NCBI GenBank assembly: GCA_017533915.1
Contig: JAFWHX010000005.1
Coordinates: forward strand, 1 to 64,000
Direction: 5' to 3'
Origin: Eubacterium sp.
GTDB lineage: Bacteria > Bacillota > Clostridia > Peptostreptococcales > Anaerovoracaceae
Length of the DNA stretch: 64,000 nucleotides
The notes beneath the pieces were generated by a model. That model made no database searches. It was not told the DNA's origin and worked only from the letters and a program-made list of their open reading frames with translations. Below, in pieces: positions 15,489 to 54,091 of this stretch (position 1 is the stretch's first letter; each line of letters opens with the position of its first letter). A program made the position numbers and the translations under genes.

Positions 15489-15804
15489 GCTTGCTTTTGG
15501 CGAAGAAGCGGGAAGTTGCTGAGCTATCAGGTAATTTCCGCCGAGAATTGTCACCGCTTTGACGGTGGCGAGGGGAGTTCGCCGGTTTTTTGCTTTGTGA
15601 GTGAATAGTAGAAACGCACGGGGCAGTGTGCAAGAGCAGGCATTTGTCGCACACCTTGAAAACACAGCATTCTCGTTGCTTTTTATCAAAGCCGGGGTTT
15701 AGAAAAACGGTTTTGAGGAATGCGAAGTGCTTTCGGGAAAGGCCGACATTAAGGATTTCCCTGTACGAGAATAGCGAAAACAGTACAGAAAACAGGAGGA
15801 AGAA
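15489..15804 (+). promoter_or_regulatory. 5' leader of the S10 operon with possible attenuator
   Basis: Inside the leader CACCG (15552-15556) pairs with CGGTG (15563-15567), and the overlapping GGCGA (15567-15571) pairs with TCGCC (15579-15583), followed by GGTTTTTTG. The second hairpin plus T run looks like a terminator, and the first would compete with it. This is the layout of a ribosomal-protein leader under feedback control, but I cannot assign it to a known class. Confidence 0.45.
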
Positions 15805-32246: not shown

Positions 32247-35200
32247 ATGAGCAAGACAATGAAAAAAGTATCAGCACTGCTGCTCGCGCTGCTGATGATC
32301 ATCACGTTCATGCCTATGACTCAGGAAGCTGCTTTTGCTGCTAAAAAAGCAAAGAAGCCTGGTAAAGTAACCAAGCTAAAAGCCAAAGAAAAAGACGGCA
32401 AGATCACCGTTTCCTGGAAAAAGGCAAAGAATGCGAAGAAGTACACAGTAACTATCAAAGACAACACGACCAAGCTTTCTTCTAACAAGACTGTTAAGAA
32501 GACAAAGATGTCATTCAAGGGCCAGTTCAGCACAAAGTACACCATCTCTGTAAAGGGTGTAAACGGAAAGAAAAAGGGAAAGGCTGCGAAGACAACTATT
32601 CAGCTTGGAATGGATCCAACGATAGAGAAGGCATTGGAAGAAGCACTTGCTGCATATCTTGCACTGCTGATCGACAAGACTGCAACAGATGCGGAACTCA
32701 AGCAGGCCAAGAAGAATCTGGAAACTGCTCAGAAGGCATATGACAAGCTGGACCAGGAAGCAAGAGCTCAGCTCAGCACTGCTACTGAACTTGCACATTC
32801 AGATTGGAACCCAGAAGTAAAAGATGCCATCAACGCTATGATCACAGCTAACAAGGGCAAAGCTAACAAGTACGTCGTATTCGACTTCGATAACACATGC
32901 TCGATCTTCGACGTTGAGGAACAGCTCGCCATCTATCAGCTGCAGACAATGGCATTCGACGAGACAGTTGATGCTGCAAAGCTCGAAGATATGCTGAAGA
33001 CACAGCTCAAGCCAAAATACTTCAAGCAGGCAGCTCCAGCAAGCGGTGATTACTGCGATAATGCTGATGCTACATATCAGGATTGGATCGACGATATCAC
33101 AGCAGCATATCAGAAACTGCTGGATAAGGGCTATACATTCACACCTGCAGGCCTTTCAGAAGAAGACCAGGCTAAGATCCAGGCAGACGATGACTGGAAA
33201 GAATTTGCCACAAAGATGAGAGCTATGTATGACTGCGTATTCGATTCAGAATCCGCTGCTGTAGCATATCCTTGGGTTCTTTACTGGTTCACAGGCATGA
33301 CACACAAGGAAGTATACGACCTTGCGTTCAGATCACACAGCTACTACAAGAATGTACCATCCACTTATGAAACATGGGTGACCGCTGGCGAAGGATCCAA
33401 GATCGGTGCTGTATCATATGAATGGACATCAGGAACTCAGGTATCAGAGAATATCAATGAGCTCATGGCTGCTCTTGATAACAATGGAATAGACGTATGG
33501 GTATGCTCTGCATCCGCTACAGACCCGATCAGAGCTGCTATCGACGTTTGGGGACTCCATGACCACGTTACCGGAATGCTGGCTATGACCAACGTTTATG
33601 AGAACGGTGCATATGTAAATGAGTATGACTATGAGACAGGCTATGCATGCATCCCGACAAAGGGTGATGTATCCGAGGCTGGATGGACATACGGAACAGA
33701 TCCTACAAAGGCTCAGACACAGGGCAAGGGCAAAGTAACTGCTATCCAGAACGTATGCGGAAAGAAATATGGCTGCGGACCTATCGCAGGCTTCATGGAT
33801 TCCACAGGAGACTACAACTTCTGCACAGAGTTCGAAGACCTCGAGGTAGTTCTTTGCTTCAACAGAGCTAACCGTAAGGTTACAGACGGCGGCGGCGTCA
33901 TCGCTGAAGTTGCCTGCTATCAGGGTGATGTAGTATATGCCGATGCTGCTGACAGATATGCTGCAGCACGTACAGATGGCGATACACTGTATGTACTCCA
34001 GGGTCGTGAGGAGAATGGATTCAGAGGACTCAGACCTACAAGAAAGACTATGAGACTTGGCAAGGACAAGGAAGCACTCTTCAGAGAAGACAAGAATGAG
34101 CAGCAGCTTCAGTACATGATCGATGAAAAGATGGATGTAGAAGATGCTATCAATGAATTTGCTCGTAAGAAGGCTGCAGATGCTTCAACTAATGTTCTCG
34201 GATTCAAATATGGATTCCTGAAGAAGTACTCTGGATATCATTCACAGGGTGCAGCTCCAGAGGCTCCTGTATCAAAGCTTGAGCTTGACTCATGGAACAC
34301 AGAGGTCAAGGATGCTATCAATGATATGATCGCTAACAACGATGATCCTACAGCTTACGCAGTATTCGACTTCGATAACACATGCTCGATCTTCGACGTT
34401 GAGGAACAGCTCGCTATCTATCAGCTGCAGACAATGTCATTCGACGAGACAATTGATGCTGCAAAGCTTGAAGAAATTCTTAAGACAGAACTGAATCCTG
34501 ATTACTTCACAGAGCCAGCTCCTTACAGTGGTGATTACTGCAAAGATCACCCAGAAGCGACATATCAGGATTGGATCGATGATATCGTAGCTGCATTCAC
34601 AAAGCTCGATGAAACATATGACTTCACACCTGCAGGACTCACACCGGATCAGCAGGCGGCTATCCAGAAGACAGATGAATGGAAAGAATTTGCTACAAAG
34701 ATGAGAGCCATGTATGACCTCGTATATGATTCAGAGTCTGCAGCAGTAGCTTATCCATGGGTACTTTACTGGTTCACAGGAATGACTGAGCAGGAAGTTT
34801 ATGATCTTGCCAAGGCTTCACACACATTCTTCAAGTCAGTTGAATCTGAGTACAGGACCTGGGTAACTGAAGGTGAAGGCTCCAAGTGCGGCAGAGTCGA
34901 GTACGAGTGGACATATGGTACACAGGTATCTGAAAACATCAATGAGCTCATGAAGACTCTTGATGAGAACGGAATCGACGTATGGGTATGCTCAGCATCT
35001 GCTACAGATCCTATCAGAGCTGCTATCGATGTCTGGGGACTCCATGACTATGTAACAGGTATGATGGCTATGACCAACAAGCTCGATGCTGATGGCAAGT
35101 ACATCAACGAGTATGATTGGGAAGGCGGAAATGCCTGGTTAGCAGAACCTGACGGAGAATGGGAGAAGGATACAGAGCTTCAGAAGACACAGACACAGGG

Positions 35201-35783
35201 CAAGGGCAAAGTCCTCGCTATTCAGAACGTTCTTTATCCTAAGTATGAAGATCATGGCCCGATCGCAGGCTTCATGGATTCCACAGGTGACTACAACTTC
35301 TGCACAGAGTTCGACTCACTTGAAACTGTCGTCTGCTTCAACAGAGCTTCACGTAAAGTAACAGATGGCGGCGGCGTTATTGCTGAACTCGCTTGCTATC
35401 AGGCTGACACTCTTGGCTATGATTTCGCTAAGGCTAATCGTTCTGGTGACACGCTGTATGTACTCCAGGGTCGTGAAGAGAATGGCTTGAGATCACTCAG
35501 ACCTTCAAGAAAGACCATGAGACTTGGTAAGACTGAGGAGAAACTCTTCAGAGATGAACAGAACCAGGCACAGGTTGATAAGATGGTAGAGTTTAAGATG
35601 GATACAGAAACTGTCGTCAACGACTTTGCTATCAAGACAGCTGCTGATGATCCTAAGTATGCATTCCCATTCAAGTATGGATTCGTATATGGTAAGCCAG
35701 GTGAGGGACTTGGTCCTAAGTTCCAGGATGACAAGTACAATCCAGATGCACTTGACTTCAGCGGATATCATTCACAGGCATAG
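32247..35783 (+). CDS. Secreted protein with two tandem HAD phosphatase domains
   Basis: The 1178-residue product begins with a signal peptide (about 1-31, ending AAFAA), then a Lys-rich fibronectin III-like domain (about 35-115) and a short helical linker. Two long repeats follow, offset by about 495 residues, both with full HAD motifs: the DFDNT nucleophile site at residues 213-217 and 708-712, VWVCSASATDP (motif II), and GFMDSTGDYN with Asp 518/522 and 1011/1015 (motif IV). Both end in SGYHSQ. A secreted phosphatase, possibly for phosphocholine-like or other small phosphoesters, is inferred; the substrate is unknown. No cell-wall anchor is seen. AAGGAGG lies upstream. Confidence 0.85.
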   Translation: MSKTMKKVSALLLALLMIITFMPMTQEAAFAAKKAKKPGKVTKLKAKEKDGKITVSWKKAKNAKKYTVTIKDNTTKLSSNKTVKKTKMSFKGQFSTKYTISVKGVNGKKKGKAAKTTIQLGMDPTIEKALEEALAAYLALLIDKTATDAELKQAKKNLETAQKAYDKLDQEARAQLSTATELAHSDWNPEVKDAINAMITANKGKANKYVVFDFDNTCSIFDVEEQLAIYQLQTMAFDETVDAAKLEDMLKTQLKPKYFKQAAPASGDYCDNADATYQDWIDDITAAYQKLLDKGYTFTPAGLSEEDQAKIQADDDWKEFATKMRAMYDCVFDSESAAVAYPWVLYWFTGMTHKEVYDLAFRSHSYYKNVPSTYETWVTAGEGSKIGAVSYEWTSGTQVSENINELMAALDNNGIDVWVCSASATDPIRAAIDVWGLHDHVTGMLAMTNVYENGAYVNEYDYETGYACIPTKGDVSEAGWTYGTDPTKAQTQGKGKVTAIQNVCGKKYGCGPIAGFMDSTGDYNFCTEFEDLEVVLCFNRANRKVTDGGGVIAEVACYQGDVVYADAADRYAAARTDGDTLYVLQGREENGFRGLRPTRKTMRLGKDKEALFREDKNEQQLQYMIDEKMDVEDAINEFARKKAADASTNVLGFKYGFLKKYSGYHSQGAAPEAPVSKLELDSWNTEVKDAINDMIANNDDPTAYAVFDFDNTCSIFDVEEQLAIYQLQTMSFDETIDAAKLEEILKTELNPDYFTEPAPYSGDYCKDHPEATYQDWIDDIVAAFTKLDETYDFTPAGLTPDQQAAIQKTDEWKEFATKMRAMYDLVYDSESAAVAYPWVLYWFTGMTEQEVYDLAKASHTFFKSVESEYRTWVTEGEGSKCGRVEYEWTYGTQVSENINELMKTLDENGIDVWVCSASATDPIRAAIDVWGLHDYVTGMMAMTNKLDADGKYINEYDWEGGNAWLAEPDGEWEKDTELQKTQTQGKGKVLAIQNVLYPKYEDHGPIAGFMDSTGDYNFCTEFDSLETVVCFNRASRKVTDGGGVIAELACYQADTLGYDFAKANRSGDTLYVLQGREENGLRSLRPSRKTMRLGKTEEKLFRDEQNQAQVDKMVEFKMDTETVVNDFAIKTAADDPKYAFPFKYGFVYGKPGEGLGPKFQDDKYNPDALDFSGYHSQA

Positions 35784-36016
35784 TTTAAATAGCTTATCCA
35801 TTCCGACCTTGGGGGTCATAAGGCCAGAATGAGGCTGTTATAACAGAGAGCGTGAGCGCCGGGGATATTTCCCCGGCGCTCCGCTTTTCAGTTATTCATA
35901 ATTTGAGATCTATGTTGATGAAATTCCATGTAGGATATTCGTGCTGAGAAGAACGCCAGTCAGAAGAGCGTGCTCTGGGGAATTTAAAAATTGTTAGTAA
36001 AATATAACTCTCGCTC
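35784..36016. other. Spacer after the HAD gene
   Basis: Apart from the terminator at 35854-35889 no feature is supported. The base composition is AT-rich near 35950-36016. Confidence 0.5.
35854..35889 (+). terminator. Terminator of the secreted phosphatase gene
   Basis: GAGCGCCGGGG/CCCCGGCGCTC is a perfect 11-bp stem with an ATATTT loop, followed by CGCTTTT. Confidence 0.85.
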
Positions 36017-36045
36017 TTGACGAGCACCAAAAATGATTCTACAAT
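36017..36045 (+). promoter_or_regulatory. Promoter of the cobalamin riboswitch
   Basis: TTGACG at 36017-36022, 17 bases, TACAAT at 36040-36045. Predicted start near 36052, just ahead of the riboswitch. Confidence 0.7.
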
Positions 36046-36065
36046 TAAAGTGCAATTGAATATGC

Positions 36066-36235
36066 ATTCTATGTTCTTCCGAAAGGAAGCCAAGAGGGAA
36101 GCGGGTGAGAATCCCGCACGGTCCCGCCACTGTGAAATGAGGAGCGTGGTCTGCGGATGTCCACTGGCAGAAATGCCGGGAAGGTGCAGAGTCATGCGAT
36201 GATCCATAAGTCAGGAGACCTGCATAGAATAGTTT
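36066..36235 (+). ncRNA. Cobalamin riboswitch
   Basis: The conserved landmarks of the B12 riboswitch occur in order: GGGAAGCGGGTGAGAATCCCGC near 36096-36117, GGTCCCGCCACTGTGAA near 36120-36136, CCACTGG and GCCGGGAAGGTGC near 36161-36187, and the B12 box AAGTCAGGAGACCTGC near 36208-36223. The element binds adenosyl- or aquocobalamin in other bacteria and normally shuts off transport or synthesis genes. Here no intact reading frame starts for nearly 800 bases downstream, and terminators intervene. Confidence 0.93.
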
Positions 36236-36288
36236 GTCTCCGGCGGTGAACCGGATCGGCAGGCGTGTGCATTACCAGCGAATACGGG

Positions 36289-36312
36289 CTGTGGGCTGAC
36301 CACAGTCCTTTT
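36289..36312 (+). terminator. Possible expression-platform terminator
   Basis: CTGTGG/CCACAG with a GCTGA loop, followed by TCCTTTT, lies about 65 bases after the B12 box. Confidence 0.5.
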
Positions 36313-36385
36313 CGTATGTTTCCTTAGATCAATAATCTGATGTGAACTGTGGCGCCCCAATTGCTTTTCATTCTTTTTCTTTTTT

Positions 36386-36452
36386 GAGGCAGGACCCGTC
36401 ACCCTGCCTCGCTTGCAGGAACCGCCGGCACGTTCAAGCGTGCCGGCTTTTT
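36386..36452 (+). terminator. Two hairpins, the second a strong terminator
   Basis: GAGGCAGG/CCTGCCTC forms near 36386-36410. GCCGGCACG/CGTGCCGGC (36424-36447) has a TTCAAG loop and is followed by TTTTT at 36448-36452. Confidence 0.8.
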
Positions 36453-36662
36453 GTATAAATGAAAACCTCTCGTTCGACGCGGGGATGTGTTTTTGTATGT
36501 TGCCGTATAGATGAAAACAAGGTTGCCACATAGATGGAAACGCTGAAGATATCATATGCTTTGATTATTTGTGTTATACTGTAAGTACTTGCAATAGAAG
36601 AGGCCTGACATAGTAAATTATATCAATATGTATAGGCGAGGTTGGAATAATGAAACACATAA

Positions 36663-36893
36663 CAGAGACTGTCAGGACAGTATTACGAGCATACGCTTTA
36701 TCTGACTCCTACTGTATATACGGTTGAGAAGGGACATAAGATCAAGCTTCTTATTTTTGCACAGGATCCGTACAGATCTCGTTTGGATGAGGCGGAAGAT
36801 GCAACGCCGCAGTTCGACGATAATGCAAAAGATAAAGTATATTCGTTTAACATAGACAACGCGTCGATAGACGTAAAGCTTCCTCCCCGCTGA
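36663..36893 (+). pseudogene. 3' remnant of an Xaa-Pro dipeptidyl-peptidase-like gene
   Basis: An open frame with no start of its own encodes about 76 residues: a C-terminal beta domain with LYLTPTVYTVEKGHKIKLLIF, then AQDPYRSRLDE and a normal end at KLPPR followed by TGA. This matches the end of CocE/NonD or X-prolyl dipeptidyl-peptidase family hydrolases. The catalytic alpha/beta-hydrolase part is absent. A stop codon lies directly before the frame, and an ATG at 36650 begins a different frame of 25 codons. The gene is therefore a truncated relic. Confidence 0.75.
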
Positions 36894-36933
36894 TCACAGC
36901 AAAGCAATCTGCGGTCTTCAGAGGGTATTAGTC

Positions 36934-36962
36934 TTGAGTTTTAGTCTGGCGTGTAATAAAAT
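36934..36962 (+). promoter_or_regulatory. Predicted promoter of the zinc-ribbon gene
   Basis: TTGAGT at 36934-36939, 17 bases, TAAAAT at 36957-36962, 40 bases before the start codon. Confidence 0.55.
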
Positions 36963-37002
36963 CAAATTAAGGTAAAACAGGTATCGTATTGGAGGAAGAA
37001 AA

Positions 37003-38307
37003 ATGCTGAAGTGCCCTAATTGTGGAGCTGAATATAATGATAACACCTGGTTCTGTGTGAACTGCGGGACTATGCTGGATGTGCAGCGTGATAAGATCAA
37101 AGAGCAGCCTGACGAAGAACCGGAGAAGGTTGAAGAAGTTGCCGAAGAGTCAGAGCAGGTAGAAGAAATTGCCGCAGAGCCAGAGCAGGTAGAAGAAGCA
37201 GGAACCGAGCCAATCGAAGAGCCAGCTGAGGACGAGACAGAACCTGCCGAAGCGGCTCCTGTAGAGGAAGCAGCCGCAGAGCCAGAGCCAGTTGAGGAAG
37301 CTGAAGAGGAAACAGCTGAAGAGGCAGAGCCAGAGGAAGAAGCTGAGCCAGCTGAAGAACCAGTTGAAGAAACGGCTCCTGAAGAAGAGTCGGAACCGGC
37401 TGAGGAAGCTGTAGAAGAAACGGCAGAAGAAAACCCAGAGGAATCTCCTGAAGAGGAAGCTGCTGAAGAACCGACTGAAGAGCCAGCAGAAGAAGCGGCT
37501 CCTGAAGAAGAGGCTGAGCCAGCAGCAGAAGAAGCGGCTCCTGAAGAAGAGCCAGAACCGACTGAGGAAGCTGTGGAAGAGACAGCAGAAGAAAATCCAG
37601 AGGAAGCTCCTGTAGAGGAAGCTGCTGAAGAGGCAGTGACAGAGGAAGAGGCCGAGTCAGCTGAAGAGGCAGCAGAAGAAGCGGCTCCTGAAGAAGAAGC
37701 TGAGCCAGCCGAGGAAGCTGTGGAAGAGACGGCAGAAGACACTCTAGAAGAAGCTCCTAAAGAGGAAGCAGCCGAAGAGCTGGAGTCTGAAGAAGAAGCC
37801 GAGCCAGCAGAAGAAACTCCAGCTGAAGCTGAGATAATCGAACCTGCACCGGTACCGCCAAGAACACCAGGCAATAATATCATGGAAGATGAGAAGACTG
37901 AAGCACTGGATGTCAATGCAGATGAAGCTTACTCATCGTATGCAGGCGGAAGCGAGAACACGGACTATGATATCAAAACTGAAGGATCGGGCAATATTGA
38001 CTACGATGTGCAGACATATGATTATGATGATGATCCGGCAGCGCAAGATAAGGGAAGCGTAGGATGGGCCGTACTGGGATTTCTCATCCCACTGATCGGG
38101 CTGATTTTGTTCATTGCATGGCATAAGAGTAAGCCTAACAGCGCGAAGAATGCAGGCGCAGGAGCTCTTGTGAGGATCATCGTAGATATCGTTCTGCTGT
38201 TTATCGGATTTATCATTCTTGGCCTGGGAGCAACATTTATTGCTGAAACAGCGGATATGTCAGACTTTGCCACAAGTGTTGTAACAAATATTACGATGAC
38301 GCTTTGA
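37003..38307 (+). CDS. Membrane zinc-ribbon protein with long acidic linker
   Basis: The 434-residue protein opens with a zinc ribbon (CPNCG near 4-8, CVNCG near 24-28). Residues about 35-290 are almost entirely Glu, Ala, Pro, Thr and Val in loose EEA-EPEE repeats and would be extended and strongly acidic. Two membrane helices lie near the C terminus (about 348-370 and 388-412). Zinc-ribbon plus membrane domain proteins are common in Firmicutes, but the 250-residue acidic linker is unusual. Function is unknown. GGAGG precedes the start. The long Ser-rich frame on the other strand is a by-product of this composition. Confidence 0.85.
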   Translation: MLKCPNCGAEYNDNTWFCVNCGTMLDVQRDKIKEQPDEEPEKVEEVAEESEQVEEIAAEPEQVEEAGTEPIEEPAEDETEPAEAAPVEEAAAEPEPVEEAEEETAEEAEPEEEAEPAEEPVEETAPEEESEPAEEAVEETAEENPEESPEEEAAEEPTEEPAEEAAPEEEAEPAAEEAAPEEEPEPTEEAVEETAEENPEEAPVEEAAEEAVTEEEAESAEEAAEEAAPEEEAEPAEEAVEETAEDTLEEAPKEEAAEELESEEEAEPAEETPAEAEIIEPAPVPPRTPGNNIMEDEKTEALDVNADEAYSSYAGGSENTDYDIKTEGSGNIDYDVQTYDYDDDPAAQDKGSVGWAVLGFLIPLIGLILFIAWHKSKPNSAKNAGAGALVRIIVDIVLLFIGFIILGLGATFIAETADMSDFATSVVTNITMTL

Positions 38308-38369
38308 TCCTGACTGAGGTCATTTTGATCTGTTCGGGATCATATGAATAAGATTATAAGTGCATTACA

Positions 38370-38405
38370 GGCAGGATGGATAGTATCCGTCCTGCCATTT
38401 TTTAC
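38370..38405 (+). terminator. Terminator of the zinc-ribbon gene
   Basis: GGCAGGATGGATA pairs with TATCCGTCCTGCC with small mismatches; ATTTTTT follows. Confidence 0.85.
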
Positions 38406-38432
38406 CATTTTCAAGAATTCTATTAAGAAGTC

Positions 38433-38461
38433 TTTACGTGTGTTTTGTGGTGTGATATTAT
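38433..38461 (+). promoter_or_regulatory. Predicted promoter of the BMC shell gene pair
   Basis: TTTACG at 38433-38438, 17 bases, TATTAT at 38456-38461, 54 bases before the first start codon. Confidence 0.55.
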
Positions 38462-38480
38462 AAATATGTATCAAAATGAG

Positions 38481-38501
38481 GTGGACTGTAATTTAGTCCA
38501 C
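38481..38501 (+). promoter_or_regulatory. Hairpin in the 5' UTR of the first BMC gene
   Basis: GTGGACT/AGTCCAC is a perfect 7-bp stem with a 7-base loop, three bases ahead of the GAGGTAG ribosome binding site. It could modulate translation or bind a regulator; it has no T run. Confidence 0.55.
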
Positions 38502-38514
38502 GTGAGGTAGACCG

Positions 38515-38892
38515 ATGGAATTGGACAAGAATACTAGAGCACAAGGTCAGGTACGTATCGTACAGGAAACAGTAGCCGGTAAAGAGATCACTCTTTGCCA
38601 TATTATTGGTGGACCTCTTCCGATCGTGTATCAGAAGCTGGGACTCAACCCTGAGATCGACTACAGGACATCTGCAATTGGTATTATGAATATGACTCCG
38701 CCGGAGTCAGCTGTTATTGCATCCGATATCGCCGTTAAGAACGGCGACGTCTACCTTGGATTTGCCGACAGATTCAGCGGAACGCTTATTATTACAGGAG
38801 AGCTCTCCCAGGTCAAGGCCGCACTGCATGAGATATGCAGATATTTTGAGAATGATCTGGGCTATGTTGTCTGCCCGATAACGGAGCGCTAG
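38515..38892 (+). CDS. EutS/PduU-type microcompartment shell protein
   Basis: The 125 residues match the circularly permuted BMC-H shell proteins EutS and PduU: an N-terminal strand and hairpin (RIVQETVAGKEITLCHIIG), then the BMC core with AIGIMNMTPPESAVIASDIAVKNGDVYLGF and DRFSGTLIITG. Such proteins form hexameric tiles of ethanolamine or propanediol microcompartments. No signature enzyme, other shell gene or regulator is adjacent; only a second copy follows nine bases later. Start ATG 38515 follows GAGGTAG. Confidence 0.88.
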   Translation: MELDKNTRAQGQVRIVQETVAGKEITLCHIIGGPLPIVYQKLGLNPEIDYRTSAIGIMNMTPPESAVIASDIAVKNGDVYLGFADRFSGTLIITGELSQVKAALHEICRYFENDLGYVVCPITER

Positions 38893-38900
38893 CATAGTAA

Positions 38901-39362
38901 ATGGGTGTATATGCTGACAAAGGCGGAAAACTTTCCGCCGAAGGCCAGGCTATTCTTGATGAAATATACAAGGACGCATATGAGCGTGCGCAAGGCGGCC
39001 AGGTACGTATCACACGTGTAACCATACCGGGAAAAGAAATCACTCTGGCACACATCATCGGAGTTTCCCAGTATCCTGTATACAAGAATATGGCGCTGGA
39101 TATAGGTCTGCACCAGGGTGAGGACCCTACGGGAAAAGCACTTGGGATACTCCATATGTGCCCGTGGGAGTCGGTAGTTATCGGAGCTGATATCGCAGTG
39201 AAAATGGGCGATGTCGAGATCGGATTCATGGATCGTTTCTGTGGATCGCTCATACTTCTGGGCGAGAGAGAGGACATCAAGTCGGCGGTCTATGAGATCG
39301 TAAGATATTTCGGAGAAGATCTCGGCTACCCGGTATGCGAAATCACAGAACAGTGGAGATAA
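38901..39362 (+). CDS. Second EutS/PduU-type shell protein, N-extended
   Basis: The 153-residue product is a paralogue of the gene just upstream (VRITRVTIPGKEITLAHIIG; ALGILHMCPWESVVIGADIAVKMGDVEIGF; DRFCGSLILLGERED). It has an N-terminal extension of about 33 residues, predicted helical (EGQAILDEIYKDAYERA), absent from the first copy and from usual EutS; it may contact cargo or a partner. No good ribosome binding site stands before ATG 38901, so coupling with the upstream gene, eight bases away, is likely. A terminator follows. Confidence 0.87.
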   Translation: MGVYADKGGKLSAEGQAILDEIYKDAYERAQGGQVRITRVTIPGKEITLAHIIGVSQYPVYKNMALDIGLHQGEDPTGKALGILHMCPWESVVIGADIAVKMGDVEIGFMDRFCGSLILLGEREDIKSAVYEIVRYFGEDLGYPVCEITEQWR

Positions 39363-39368
39363 TTATGA

Positions 39369-39394
39369 GCCGGGATATGAGTCCCGGCTTTTTT
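39369..39394 (+). terminator. Terminator of the BMC gene pair
   Basis: GCCGGGA/TCCCGGC with a 6-base loop is followed by six T. Confidence 0.85.
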
Positions 39395-39425
39395 ATGCGG
39401 ACTACTTCGACATCTGAGAGAACAA

Positions 39426-39572
39426 ATGAAAAAAACTGTTTTTATGCGGCAGATGAGCTGTTCAGGAGAAGGCGTACAGGATGTCGTTGACTATCTGTGT
39501 GAGTATTCCGACAAGCTGTCGCTGGAGGAAGTAAAAGAAAACCAGAAAAAAAGGCTCAAAGACTGGGCTTAG
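39426..39572 (+). CDS. Short unrecognised protein or gene fragment
   Basis: A 48-codon frame from ATG 39426 encodes a mostly helical, charged peptide (GVQDVVDYLCEYSDKLSLEEV, then KRLKDWA). It lacks a clear ribosome binding site. The composition looks protein-like rather than random, so it may be a genuine small protein or the C-terminal remnant of a lost gene. Confidence 0.35.
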   Translation: MKKTVFMRQMSCSGEGVQDVVDYLCEYSDKLSLEEVKENQKKRLKDWA

Positions 39573-39630
39573 AGAGTTGCAGCCAAAAGTAAATATAAGT
39601 CAGAAACAGAATAATAAGTGAGGGACAATT

Positions 39631-40506
39631 TTGGATTTCAGGATCGGAAGAAATGACCCGTGCTGGTGCGGGAGCGGAAAAAAGTACAAAAAATGCCATT
39701 ATGATTTTGATCAGAAGATCAGGCAGATAGAGTCGGAAGGGCACATCGTACCGGACCACGACATGCTGAAGACCCCGGATGAGGTCGAGATGATCAAAAA
39801 GAGCGCGCACATCAACGTGACCGTGCTTGACGAGATCACCGAGCACATCCACGAAGGCATGCGCCTTTCTGAGATAGATGACCTGGTAAACGAGGTCACT
39901 GAAAAGATGGGCGGGATCCCTGCGCCGCTTAACTATGAGGGATATCCTTACAGCGTCTGCACATCCGTGAACGACCAGGTATGCCACGGCTTCCCGCGTC
40001 CTGAATACATTCTGAAATCAGGAGACATCGTGAACTGCGACTGCTCCACGATACTTAACGGATATTATTCCGACTCATCCAGGATGTACTGCATCGGCGA
40101 CGTCAGCCCGGAGAAGCGGAAGCTCGTCGAAGTAACTAAAGAGTGCGTCGAGCTCGGTCTTGAGAAAGTCCAGCCATGGGGATTCATGGGCGACATGTCA
40201 CATGCAGTAGACGAGCATGCTCGCGCCAACGGCTATAGAGTAGTAGAAGAATTCGGCGGCCACGGAGTCGGAGTGGAATTCCACGAGGATCCGTTCGTCG
40301 ACTACGTCAGCGAGCCTGGAACAGAGATGCTTCTTGTTCCGGGGCTCATGTTCACGATCGAGCCGATGATAAACATGGGCAGAAAAGACATCTATATAGA
40401 CAAAGACAATGGCTGGGAAGTTTACACTCAGGATCACAAGCCATCAGCTCAGTGGGAGATTCAGGTGCTCGTAACAGAAGACGGCCACGAAGTGATCAGC
40501 TGGTAG
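39631..40506 (+). CDS. map: Methionine aminopeptidase with N-terminal SEC-C motif
   Basis: Type I MetAP removes the initiator Met from new proteins. The 291 residues begin with a zinc-binding SEC-C motif (NDPCWCGSGKKYKKCH, about 8-23), thought to bring the enzyme to the ribosome. Then comes the pita-bread fold with metal ligands in CDCSTIL (Asp), SDSSRMY (Asp), HGVGVEFHEDP (His), FTIEPM (Glu) and a final Glu in QWEIQVLV. The start is TTG 39631 after GAGGG. It is the only map in the window and may replace the one missing from the adk-infA interval. Confidence 0.94.
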   Translation: MDFRIGRNDPCWCGSGKKYKKCHYDFDQKIRQIESEGHIVPDHDMLKTPDEVEMIKKSAHINVTVLDEITEHIHEGMRLSEIDDLVNEVTEKMGGIPAPLNYEGYPYSVCTSVNDQVCHGFPRPEYILKSGDIVNCDCSTILNGYYSDSSRMYCIGDVSPEKRKLVEVTKECVELGLEKVQPWGFMGDMSHAVDEHARANGYRVVEEFGGHGVGVEFHEDPFVDYVSEPGTEMLLVPGLMFTIEPMINMGRKDIYIDKDNGWEVYTQDHKPSAQWEIQVLVTEDGHEVISW

Positions 40507-42845: not shown

Positions 42846-43151
42846 TCCACGCCTCCTGCTTTCATGACGCCTTAGATATCGAACCATATGGCATACAAAT
42901 CTTTGTGTGCCCACGCCCAATCAAAACTTTATCGATCAACATTTCACGCCCGATCAAAACCTTATCGATCATCATTTCACGCCCGATCAAAACTCACCTG
43001 TTCCAAGAAAAGGCTAACCCTATTAAAAATGAATTTCAACAAAAATATTAAAACTATTCTGGTTGTAATGCGGCAGGACGAATCGCAAAACAGATCAAAA
43101 TTTGTTTAGGCGGATGCCACGTAGTGATGTGTAACCTTCCAAGACAGTTTT
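42846..43151. other. Spacer with a 33-bp repeat
   Basis: CACGCCCGATCAAAACCTTATCGATCA(A/T)CATTT-like units start at 42912, 42945 and 42978 (the third truncated). The remainder up to 43151 is AT-rich with no gene. Confidence 0.6.
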
Positions 43152-43690
43152 TTGTATCAAAAGGGCCAAGGTTTTGTCATATGTGTACACAAAAATGGGC
43201 TGAAATGGGCTTTGATCACAGTTAGGAGTGAAAAACATTGTATCAAAATGGCCAAAGTTTTGCTGCATGTGTACACAAACGTACCGAAATGTGTTTTGAT
43301 CGCACCAAGAGTGAAAGTTTTGTATCAAAATGGCCAAGGTTTTGTCATATGTGTACACAAAAATGGGCCGAAATGGGCTTTGATCGCAGTTAGGAGTGAA
43401 AAACATTGTATCAAAATGGCCAAAGTTTTGCTGCATGTGTACACAAACGTACCGAAATGTGTTTTGATCGTACCGAAATGTGTTTTGATCGCACCAAGAG
43501 TGAAAGTTTTGTATCAAAATGGCCAAGGTTTTGTCATATGTGTACACAAAAATGGGCCGAAATGGGCTTTGATCGCGGTCAGGAGTGAAAAACATTGTAT
43601 CAAAAGGGCCAAGGTTTTGCTGTATGTGTACACAAAGACCAGCCGAAATGTACACATTTCGCAGCCAAGGGGGAAAAGCGCTTGGCATTT
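43152..43690. repeat. Alternating 82/86-bp array of the TGTACA repeat family
   Basis: Units begin with TTGTATCAAAA at 43152, 43238, 43320, 43406, 43509 and 43595. Two types alternate: one holds AAGGTTTTGTCATATGTGTACACAAAAATGGGC, the other AAAGTTTTGCTGCATGTGTACACAAACGTACC. The 103-bp unit contains a 20-bp internal duplication. Read on the minus strand the unit contains TTTTGTGTACACATATGACAAAACCTTG, also found in the 53-kb array. Open frames on both strands here are repeat artefacts. Confidence 0.9.
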
Positions 43691-43898: not shown

Positions 43899-44831
43899 AT
43901 GTTACATGAAGTAAGCTTCAAATCTTTTAATGAAAGGGACATGGTACAGGGCTGGGTATATGTTCCGGCGTGCGAGCCTAAAGGGATAATCCAGCTGGTA
44001 CATGGCTTCGGCGAGCATTCCAGACGTTATCTTCACATGATCGTCGCGTTCATGGACGCAGGATATATCGTAGCGGCGGACGATCACGTCGGCCACGGCA
44101 AGACTGCTGTCGTGAACGACTCGTGGGGAGACTGGGGCGATAAAGGCGCTCACACCATGATGGAGGACGAATACCAGCTCACAAAGATCGTCAAGGAAAT
44201 GTATCCGGGGCTTCCTTATTTCATTTACGGGCACAGCATGGGATCGTTCATCGTGAGAGATTACATCGCGAAATACGGTGATGAGCTGAAAGGCGCGACG
44301 ATCTGCGGAACCTGCGGCGTTATGCCGACTCTCGCAGACAGCAAAGCCGCGATCAAAGCCGCTGTCGACGCCGGGAAGGGCGATGATTCAGATCCGAATT
44401 TCACAGCAATGCTCTTTGGCTTCATGTTTGCCAGGATAGAGGAGCCTGTGAAGCTTGGAAATGAATGGATCTGCCACAGCAAATGGGTGCAGGAAGACCA
44501 CGCGGCTGACCCGTTCGATGCTTTTACAAAGCCGACAAACAACCGCGCGATGCTCTATCTTTGCGAGATGATGGAGTGCGTTCAGGGCGAGGAATGGGCG
44601 AACAAAGTCCCTGCCTCTCTTCCAATTTATAACATTGGCGGCGACGAGGATCCTGTAGGAAGCTGGGGAGTAGGCGTATATGAGACATCCAACCTGCTCG
44701 CTTCGACCGGCCACAAAGTAAAGACGAAGCTCTATCCGGGCTACCGCCACGAGATCCACAATTACGACGACATCAAAGCCGACGTCGAAAAGGGCATCAT
44801 CGACTTCTACAACAGCTGCATTGAGAAATAG
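43899..44831 (+). CDS. Alpha/beta hydrolase, monoacylglycerol lipase-like
   Basis: The 310-residue protein has the serine hydrolase fold of the Hydrolase_4 family. Seen are VHGFGEHSRRY (oxyanion region), the nucleophile elbow GHSMGS, an acid residue in GGDEDPVG and the late histidine in YRHEIHNY. Such enzymes act on monoacylglycerols, lysophospholipids or small esters; the substrate is unknown. CAAGGAGG precedes the start. The gene's last 37 bases, with the stop, are repeated three times behind it. Confidence 0.9.
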   Translation: MLHEVSFKSFNERDMVQGWVYVPACEPKGIIQLVHGFGEHSRRYLHMIVAFMDAGYIVAADDHVGHGKTAVVNDSWGDWGDKGAHTMMEDEYQLTKIVKEMYPGLPYFIYGHSMGSFIVRDYIAKYGDELKGATICGTCGVMPTLADSKAAIKAAVDAGKGDDSDPNFTAMLFGFMFARIEEPVKLGNEWICHSKWVQEDHAADPFDAFTKPTNNRAMLYLCEMMECVQGEEWANKVPASLPIYNIGGDEDPVGSWGVGVYETSNLLASTGHKVKTKLYPGYRHEIHNYDDIKADVEKGIIDFYNSCIEK

Positions 44832-44944
44832 GGTCATCGACTTCTATAATAGTTGCATTGAGAAGTAGGATCGTCGACTTTTACAACAGCTGCCTCGAGA
44901 AGTAGGGTCGTCGACTTTTACAGCAACTTTCTCGAGAGGCAGCG
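44797..44944. repeat. 37-bp tandem array that starts inside the hydrolase gene
   Basis: Four copies start at 44797, 44834, 44871 and 44908. The first is the 3' end of the coding sequence with its stop (TCATCGACTTCTACAACAGC... GAGAAATAGGG). Later copies drift (TCGTCGACTTTTAC) but keep TAG at the same place in copies 2 and 3. Confidence 0.9.
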
Positions 44945-44972
44945 TCAGACGGATCTGGCAAGACATCAAAAA

Positions 44973-46404: not shown

Positions 46405-46887
46405 TGCTGTAATATGTGGCCAGGTGCTACGATGACCGGGCCATTTCCTCCCTCTGATATGAATTATACCATGTATATAAAGCTATATTCTATAGAGCAG
46501 GCAGTTTCTACGTTTTATAGAGTTTATTTTATAAAGGCAGGCAGCTTTCATGTTTTACAGTATCTACATATGTGCCGGACCCCGTTCACCAAAAAAACAC
46601 TTTACAAATCTGATGTAAATGTGGTATATACTTCTTGGTGGACGGTATTCCCCGAGGGAAACTATACCATCATATGATCAGGAAGAAAAAGGGCCGGACA
46701 GAAACAGGCCTGCATCCCGCAGCCGCATACAGCTGCAGCAGCGTTAAAGCAACAGTTGCAGCAACATTACATCAGCATTACAGCAATTGTAATGATCTGA
46801 GAATGCGAGTGCATTGGGAGCAGGACCACGAGAAGGAGCCGGAGAAGTATTCCGAGATATTATGAACGTCCATCCGCTGGTGAATAT

Positions 46888-47010
46888 GCCGAAGCGGATT
46901 TTTTGGTCCGCGAGGCGAAACAGTGCCGAAGCGGATTTTTTGGTCCGCGAGGCGAAACAGTGCCGAGGCGGATTTTTTAGTCCGCAAGGCAAAACAGTGC
47001 CGAAGCGGAT
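46888..47010. repeat. 37-bp tandem hairpin repeat
   Basis: GCCGAAGCGGATTTTTTGG-type units start at 46888, 46925, 46962 and (partial) 46999, each with GCGGA/TCCGC as a 5-bp hairpin and a T run in the loop, followed by GCGAGGCGAAACAGT. Confidence 0.85.
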
Positions 47011-47013
47011 ATT

Positions 47014-53485: not shown

Positions 53486-54070
53486 ATTTGTGTATACATA
53501 GAGCAAAACCTTGTACAAAATTGTACAAGGTTTTTGCTTTGATACGGCCATATTGGGACATTTCGACTGATTTTTGTGTACACATATGACAAAACCTTGT
53601 ACAAAATGGTACAAGATTTTGTTTCAATACGGCCAGACCTATACATTTCGGCTGTTTTGTGTACACATAGAGCAAAACCTTGTACAAAATGCGACAAGAT
53701 TTTGTTTCAATACGGCTGGAGCGACACATTTCGGCTGTTTTGTTTCAATACGGCTGGAGCGACACATTTCGGCTGTTTTGTGTACACATAGAGCAAAACC
53801 TTGTACAATATGGTACAAGGTTTTTGCTTAAATATGGCGAGATTGGCACATTTTGACTGCTTTTTGTGTACACATAGAGCAAAACCTTGTACAAAATGGT
53901 ACAAGGTTTTGTTTCAATACGGCCAGATCGGGACATTTCGACTGTTTTTTGTGTACACATATGACAAAACCTAGTACAAAATGGTACAAGGTTTTGTTTC
54001 AAAACGGCCAGACCTATACATTTCGGCTGTTTTGTGTACACATAGAACGAAACCTTGTACAATATGGCAC
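53486..54070. repeat. 85-bp tandem array of the TGTACA hairpin repeat
   Basis: Seven units whose hairpin starts at 53505, 53591, 53674, 53795, 53881, 53966 and about 54050. The best units read AAAACCTTGTAC, a 6-base loop, then GTACAAGGTTTT, a perfect 12-bp stem. Linkers hold TTTCAATACGGCCAGAC, ACATTTCGGCTGTTTTGTG and TGTACACATAGAGC. The 121-bp interval contains a 36-bp internal duplication. Frames on both strands are by-products. Confidence 0.93.
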
Positions 54071-54091
54071 ACTTTTTGATACAAAATCTGT

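Follow-up and report, generated by a model that had tools for sequence, protein, structure and literature searches.

In Salmonella, the permuted hexamer PduU has a small GTPase-like partner, PduV; the two proteins interact in two-hybrid tests, docking places PduV on the PduU barrel, and both are described as belonging to the main pdu operon, which has a single PduU (PMC4315436). PduV has been proposed to take part in filament-associated movement (PMC9132943). Isolated pduU-pduV pairs are already known from Acetobacterium woodii, in which clusters 2 and 3, both outside the main BMC locus, are each described as one PduU-type shell gene, with no B-like second gene, plus a gene of the PduV/EutP type (PMC7593272). 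In the definition of Axen et al., the shell genes of a satellite BMC locus are contiguous but do not make up a sufficient set (PF00936 or PF03319 alone); the same authors tabulated PduV near satellite-like loci, with PduV/EutP near 57% of them (PMC4207490). EutS, PduU, and CutR (PDB 4axi, 3i96, 3cgi, and 6xpi) are known permuted BMC-H proteins. EutS is reported to be dispensable for Salmonella assembly (PMC12487888).

The locus described here lies on contig C15 of a Eubacterium sp. genome (G000), within a stretch of 64,000 nucleotides that was analyzed as a whole (the window). It consists of two permuted shell genes, A and B, to which relatives add a third cassette member that was overlooked in the original prediction, an EutP/PduV-type small GTPase gene located after or between A and B. 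Compared with the A. woodii clusters, the cassette has two diverged tiles, and its GTPase gene is broken in the window; unlike PduU and PduV of Salmonella, the tiles of the window lie away from the main locus. The published satellite-like loci resemble the window in having shell genes only, with the main locus elsewhere, but the retrieved part of PMC4207490 describes no two-tile A-B-GTPase cassette. In a full-text literature search covering papers outside subscription, the text portions retrieved gave no description of the A/B duplication, the B helix, the near-constant three-gene cassette and its occurrence next to several BMC types, or the paralogous GTPases scattered elsewhere.

The two back-to-back permuted BMC-H genes that had been predicted were confirmed. 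Gene A (38515-38892, + strand) encodes 125 aa and gene B (38901-39362, + strand) encodes 153 aa; both are intact, and monomer structure prediction gave both proteins the permuted BMC fold of the EutS/PduU type. The models are of monomers, with low confidence for residues 1-20 of A; the N-terminal strand sequence is kept in A. The helical N-terminal extension of about 33 residues proposed for B was also borne out, with a helix predicted at codons 13-29 (38937-38987, + strand). The extension was considered as an encapsulation peptide but is not claimed as one, because its amphipathicity exceeded that of shuffled sequences only modestly (mean z 0.9, 28% above 1.5; 57 of 70 B sequences analyzed). 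A and B are set apart from EutS, PduU, and CutR by their scores below the curated cut-off of the NCBIfam EutS model NF012012 (A 83.6 and B 66.4 vs 123 bits) and B also by its helical extension; EutS1 of the main locus was narrowly under the same cut-off (119.2 vs 123 bits). The dN/dS values between the window and a related locus (L055) were approximately 0.035 for A and 0.027 for B, compared with 0.039 for the neighboring MetAP gene. Strong purifying selection acts on A and B.

The genome contains 13 BMC-domain matches, of which two are A and B on C15, nine are on contig C9, and two fall in one C7 protein. Both pentamers (BMC-P) are encoded on C9 and none on C15. The C9 locus is a complete eut locus with BMC-H, BMC-T, and BMC-P genes and enzymes. 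EutA (613.7 bits), EutB (662.5), EutC (297.9), EutL (326.3), acetaldehyde dehydrogenase (660.7), and EutP (145.2) exceeded the NCBIfam cut-offs, and EutT, EutH, and a PduL-type protein matched below them. The locus also carries its own EutS pair with a mutual identity of 74%. The pair had been called an orphan, which holds for C15, where A and B are without other shell genes, but not for the genome. The finding named in advance as making the pair a simple satellite was a complete eut/pdu locus that has an EutS of its own, and C9 carries such a locus. C15 encodes two BMC domains but no pentamer, the two shell genes are contiguous, and a main BMC locus exists elsewhere in the genome; the A-B locus is thus a satellite BMC locus in the sense of Axen et al. 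Separately, a lone PduB/EtuB-like tandem BMC-T gene was observed away from the eut locus (L012:9802-10596; C7:72802-73596; NF011944, 286.4 bits, over the cut-off; 3io0, E 2.6e-66). Its orthologues also stand alone in G008 (C31, 87% identical) and G009 (C14, 67%), and G011 (C20) has one that is 35% identical. EutB genes outside BMC loci were observed at L153:9301-11562 (G008 C15, 579.7 bits) and L154:4037-6419 (G009 C35, 572 bits), beside EutC-like and two-component-like genes named by eye; the first residues of the EutC-like proteins form a short segment that looks amphipathic and resembles an encapsulation peptide.

Within the genus, the pair was present in 7 of 17 genomes. An EutP/PduV-family gene lies 3′ of B in all six of the other genus genomes with the pair and is intact in G008, the closest relative. 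The GTPases of six genus cassettes scored 134 to 148 bits against PF10662 (cut-off 21), and that of G008 scored 118.4 bits against TIGR02528, under the stricter cut-off of 138.35. A scan with seven A orthologues yielded 114 relatives, and the best 80 of the 114 loci were kept. Among these best 80, a GTPase gene adjoins in 78, and the other two loci are cut by contig ends. Most loci (58) have the order A-B-GTPase, 14 have the GTPase gene between the tiles (A-GTPase-B), six are A-GTPase, and one each shows A-B or only A; contig ends cut the A-B locus, the A-alone locus, and one of the six A-GTPase loci, and the other five A-GTPase loci are of a more distant single-tile kind. Carriers among the best 80 of 114 include Lachnospiraceae, Clostridium, Hornefia, and Atopobiaceae. 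In the same set, 52 loci are without another shell gene (33 of them with full 10-kb flanks) and 28 are with one; 16 hold a pentamer gene, 9 lie by a glycyl-radical enzyme gene, 4 by eutH, and 1 by eutB. The cassette is found near several BMC types or alone.

These results are probably best explained by an accessory A-B-GTPase module, in which the shell tiles dock the GTPase on a shell made elsewhere and the local GTPase gene has decayed. A and B, from their predicted fold, would form EutS/PduU-type hexamers and become part of a shell whose main components are encoded at another locus, in this genome the eut locus. By analogy with PduU, the N-terminal segments of A and B would form a barrel over the pore, and the published PduU-PduV binding together with the near-constant gene linkage suggests that this barrel is where the GTPase docks on the outside of the shell. 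The docked GTPase may then act in organelle positioning, partition, or maturation, and the helix of B could be a second docking element. Published observations also count against the module. The isolated A. woodii pduU-pduV pairs are reported to show weak transcription (PMC7593272), in Salmonella the Eut BMC can be assembled without EutS and tagged EutP is described as cytosolic (PMC12487888), and mixed EutS/PduU hexamers are poorly supported in PMC12058022. Further points against it are two eut genomes of the genus without the pair (G003 and G015), one of 18 distant copies without an adjoining GTPase gene (L150), and the broken GTPase gene of the window.

As an alternative, A and B might be variants of the pore or surface, under separate regulation, that change how permeable the main shell is to certain substrates, with the GTPase linkage incidental or related to acetate kinase activity. 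Permeability tuning is what has generally been proposed for shell genes at satellite loci (PMC8217296), and it has also been put forward to explain the pduU pairs of A. woodii (PMC7593272). EutP has been published as an acetate kinase (PMC7593272, PMC12487888), and the A-B unit has its own intrinsic terminator (39367-39390, + strand). We regard this explanation as unlikely, because a GTPase gene that adjoins in 78 of the best 80 of 114 loci, beside different BMC types, is more than incidental; the PduU pore is also described as occluded (PMC7593272).

In the window, the GTPase gene is reduced to a 48-codon remnant of the EutP/PduV type (39426-39572, + strand), which sits just beyond the terminator, where relatives have the GTPase gene. 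What is left of the gene are its first codons and the final 35 residues, approximately 345 bp less than in L055. The P-loop, DxPG, and [TN]KxD motifs were absent from the three frames of 39363-39630. Among the GTPases of relatives, 93 of 95 have both the P-loop and DxPG, and 59 also have [TN]K[IVL]D. The comparison of the 35 remaining codons with L055 gave a dN/dS of 0.062/1.08, indicating that the deletion is probably recent or that the peptide is still constrained. L055 has the same terminator, between B and its intact GTPase gene, which means that the terminator was not created by the loss of the GTPase. The unit had been described as not a decayed fragment; this stands for A and B, which are under strong purifying selection, but not for the third gene, which has lost most of its length. 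The remnant, opposite an intact gene in the closest relative, would fit a module decaying in this lineage, with the GTPase gone and A and B carried as passengers or being lost. This is rather improbable, since the dN/dS of A and B (about 0.03) is like that of MetAP and two intact paralogous GTPases remain in tandem on contig C2. Under the accessory-module reading, these unlinked paralogues could supply the lost local function. The C2 pair (L048:8126-9180; C2:30126-31183) is PduV-type and lies beside histidine biosynthesis-like genes, and no shell gene was seen in the fetched 18 kb around it. A similar pair was observed in G008.

In the tile tree, B formed one clade (100/98) and A another (91/84), and the two were joined at 100/100. 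The EutS and PduU sequences, among them those of solved structures, formed a clade (100/99) that lay, together with the single-tile relatives, across the midpoint root from A and B. This suggests that A and B are the products of one old duplication rather than copies of the eut locus of this genome. The GTPase tree splits similarly into cassette and single-tile partners, with EutP outside. Within the cassette-GTPase clade (99/100), the C2 GTPases and the unlinked G008 and G009 copies formed one clade (100/99), apart from EutP. The trees were built from 137 and 165 columns and have long branches; the tile tree was thinned to 23 of 65 A and 23 of 70 B rows and the GTPase tree to about every third cassette GTPase. 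The single-tile relatives were not one clade in either tree.

In a class sample of 393 clostridial genomes, the A-like family was present in 50. The line between A-like and EutS matches was set by us at 130 bits from the score gap: A-like genomes scored at least 131.4 bits, the next match below was B of the window at 118.5 bits, and one B at 138.1 bits belongs to an already counted A-like genome. BMC-P was found in 50 of 50 A-like genomes compared with 49 of 343 others (Fisher 7.6e-36, nominal as the genomes are related). Genomes with only EutS-scoring matches (87-119 bits) had BMC-P in 19 of 20 cases; EutS marks a shell equally well, and the co-occurrence therefore shows the need of a shell rather than a special role. 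A pentamer gene lies within 15 kb of 18 of the 51 A-like copies but not of the remaining 33; among 18 of these 33 distant copies that were fetched, the GTPase gene was next door in 17, with L150 as the exception, and B was found in just two, those whose A was closest.

Among 50 chosen loci without nearby BMC-H or BMC-P, a pentamer was encoded elsewhere in 44 genomes; ordinary BMC-H genes were present in five of the six that lacked one, and the sixth, G017, has the same matches as G008. Within the genus, BMC-P was present in 6 of 7 genomes with the pair vs 2 of 10 without (p 0.015), and these two, the eut genomes G003 and G015, indicate that eut does not need the pair. The pentamers in all 50 A-like genomes, together with the two pentamers and EutS pair on C9, support the proposal that A and B complete a shell encoded elsewhere. 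The competing proposal of a two-protein assembly found no such support, the pair occurring without a pentamer or ordinary hexamer in one genome only (G008, 88% complete; again as G017). A pentamer-free BMC-like assembly of A, B, and the orphan PduB-like trimer, modeled on G008, where these are the only BMC-domain proteins beside four GTPases and an EutB gene, is highly improbable given the incompleteness of that genome, the pentamers in all 50 A-like genomes of the class sample, and the pentamers or ordinary BMC-H genes in the other isolated-cassette genomes.

Because the module is often apart from enzyme loci, yet every class-sample genome that carries it also has a set of shell genes, these results suggest that the tiles and the GTPase form one functional unit able to serve different BMCs. 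More tentatively, the cassette could be a general add-on independent of BMC type, in which two tiles serve as a dock and supply a dedicated small GTPase to whatever metabolosome shell is present (for ethanolamine, choline, or others), with a role in positioning, inheritance, or turnover; it would have been carried across Bacillota and into Atopobiaceae; in the lineage of the window, tiles and GTPases would then be kept at separate places. The role of the tiles and the GTPase becomes testable in tractable, harmless carriers, such as Lacrimispora and Clostridium ljungdahlii.

Upstream of A, a promoter-like site with an extended −10 (TG, TATTAT) lies at 38433-38461 (+ strand); the count of such sites is close to chance, and the −10 region is conserved in L055. 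The 5′ UTR hairpin (38481-38501, + strand) is not conserved there. A Cobalamin riboswitch (36054-36241, 113 bits) has no intact gene close behind it. An association of this riboswitch with the pair had been raised, but no sequence link to A-B was found: it lies 2.3 kb away, a zinc-ribbon gene and a terminator intervene, and the coding fragment behind it (36651-36893), which resembles the C-terminal end of a secreted hydrolase or peptidase, does not encode a shell protein. An EutV-type antiterminator motif (up to 2 mismatches) gave 43 matches in the window vs 36 by chance, with none in 35398-40171. Scanning the fetched eut, C2, and C7 stretches for regulatory RNA families gave none, and only 15 tRNAs in L009. 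The zinc-ribbon protein directly 5′ of A (37003-38307) has a long Glu/Pro/Ala-rich repeat, and a similar gene is upstream of the G008 cassette. A secreted-looking protein of 1178 aa (32247-35783) consists of two halves that resemble each other and matches HAD-like and fn3 domains weakly. Direct-repeat arrays with units of approximately 168, 37, 37, and 85 nt lie between ordinary genes at 43112-43636, 44796-44957, 46887-47013, and 53486-54071, and an S10-Clostridia ribosomal leader (RF03136, 39.5 bits) precedes ribosomal protein genes at 15495-15571.
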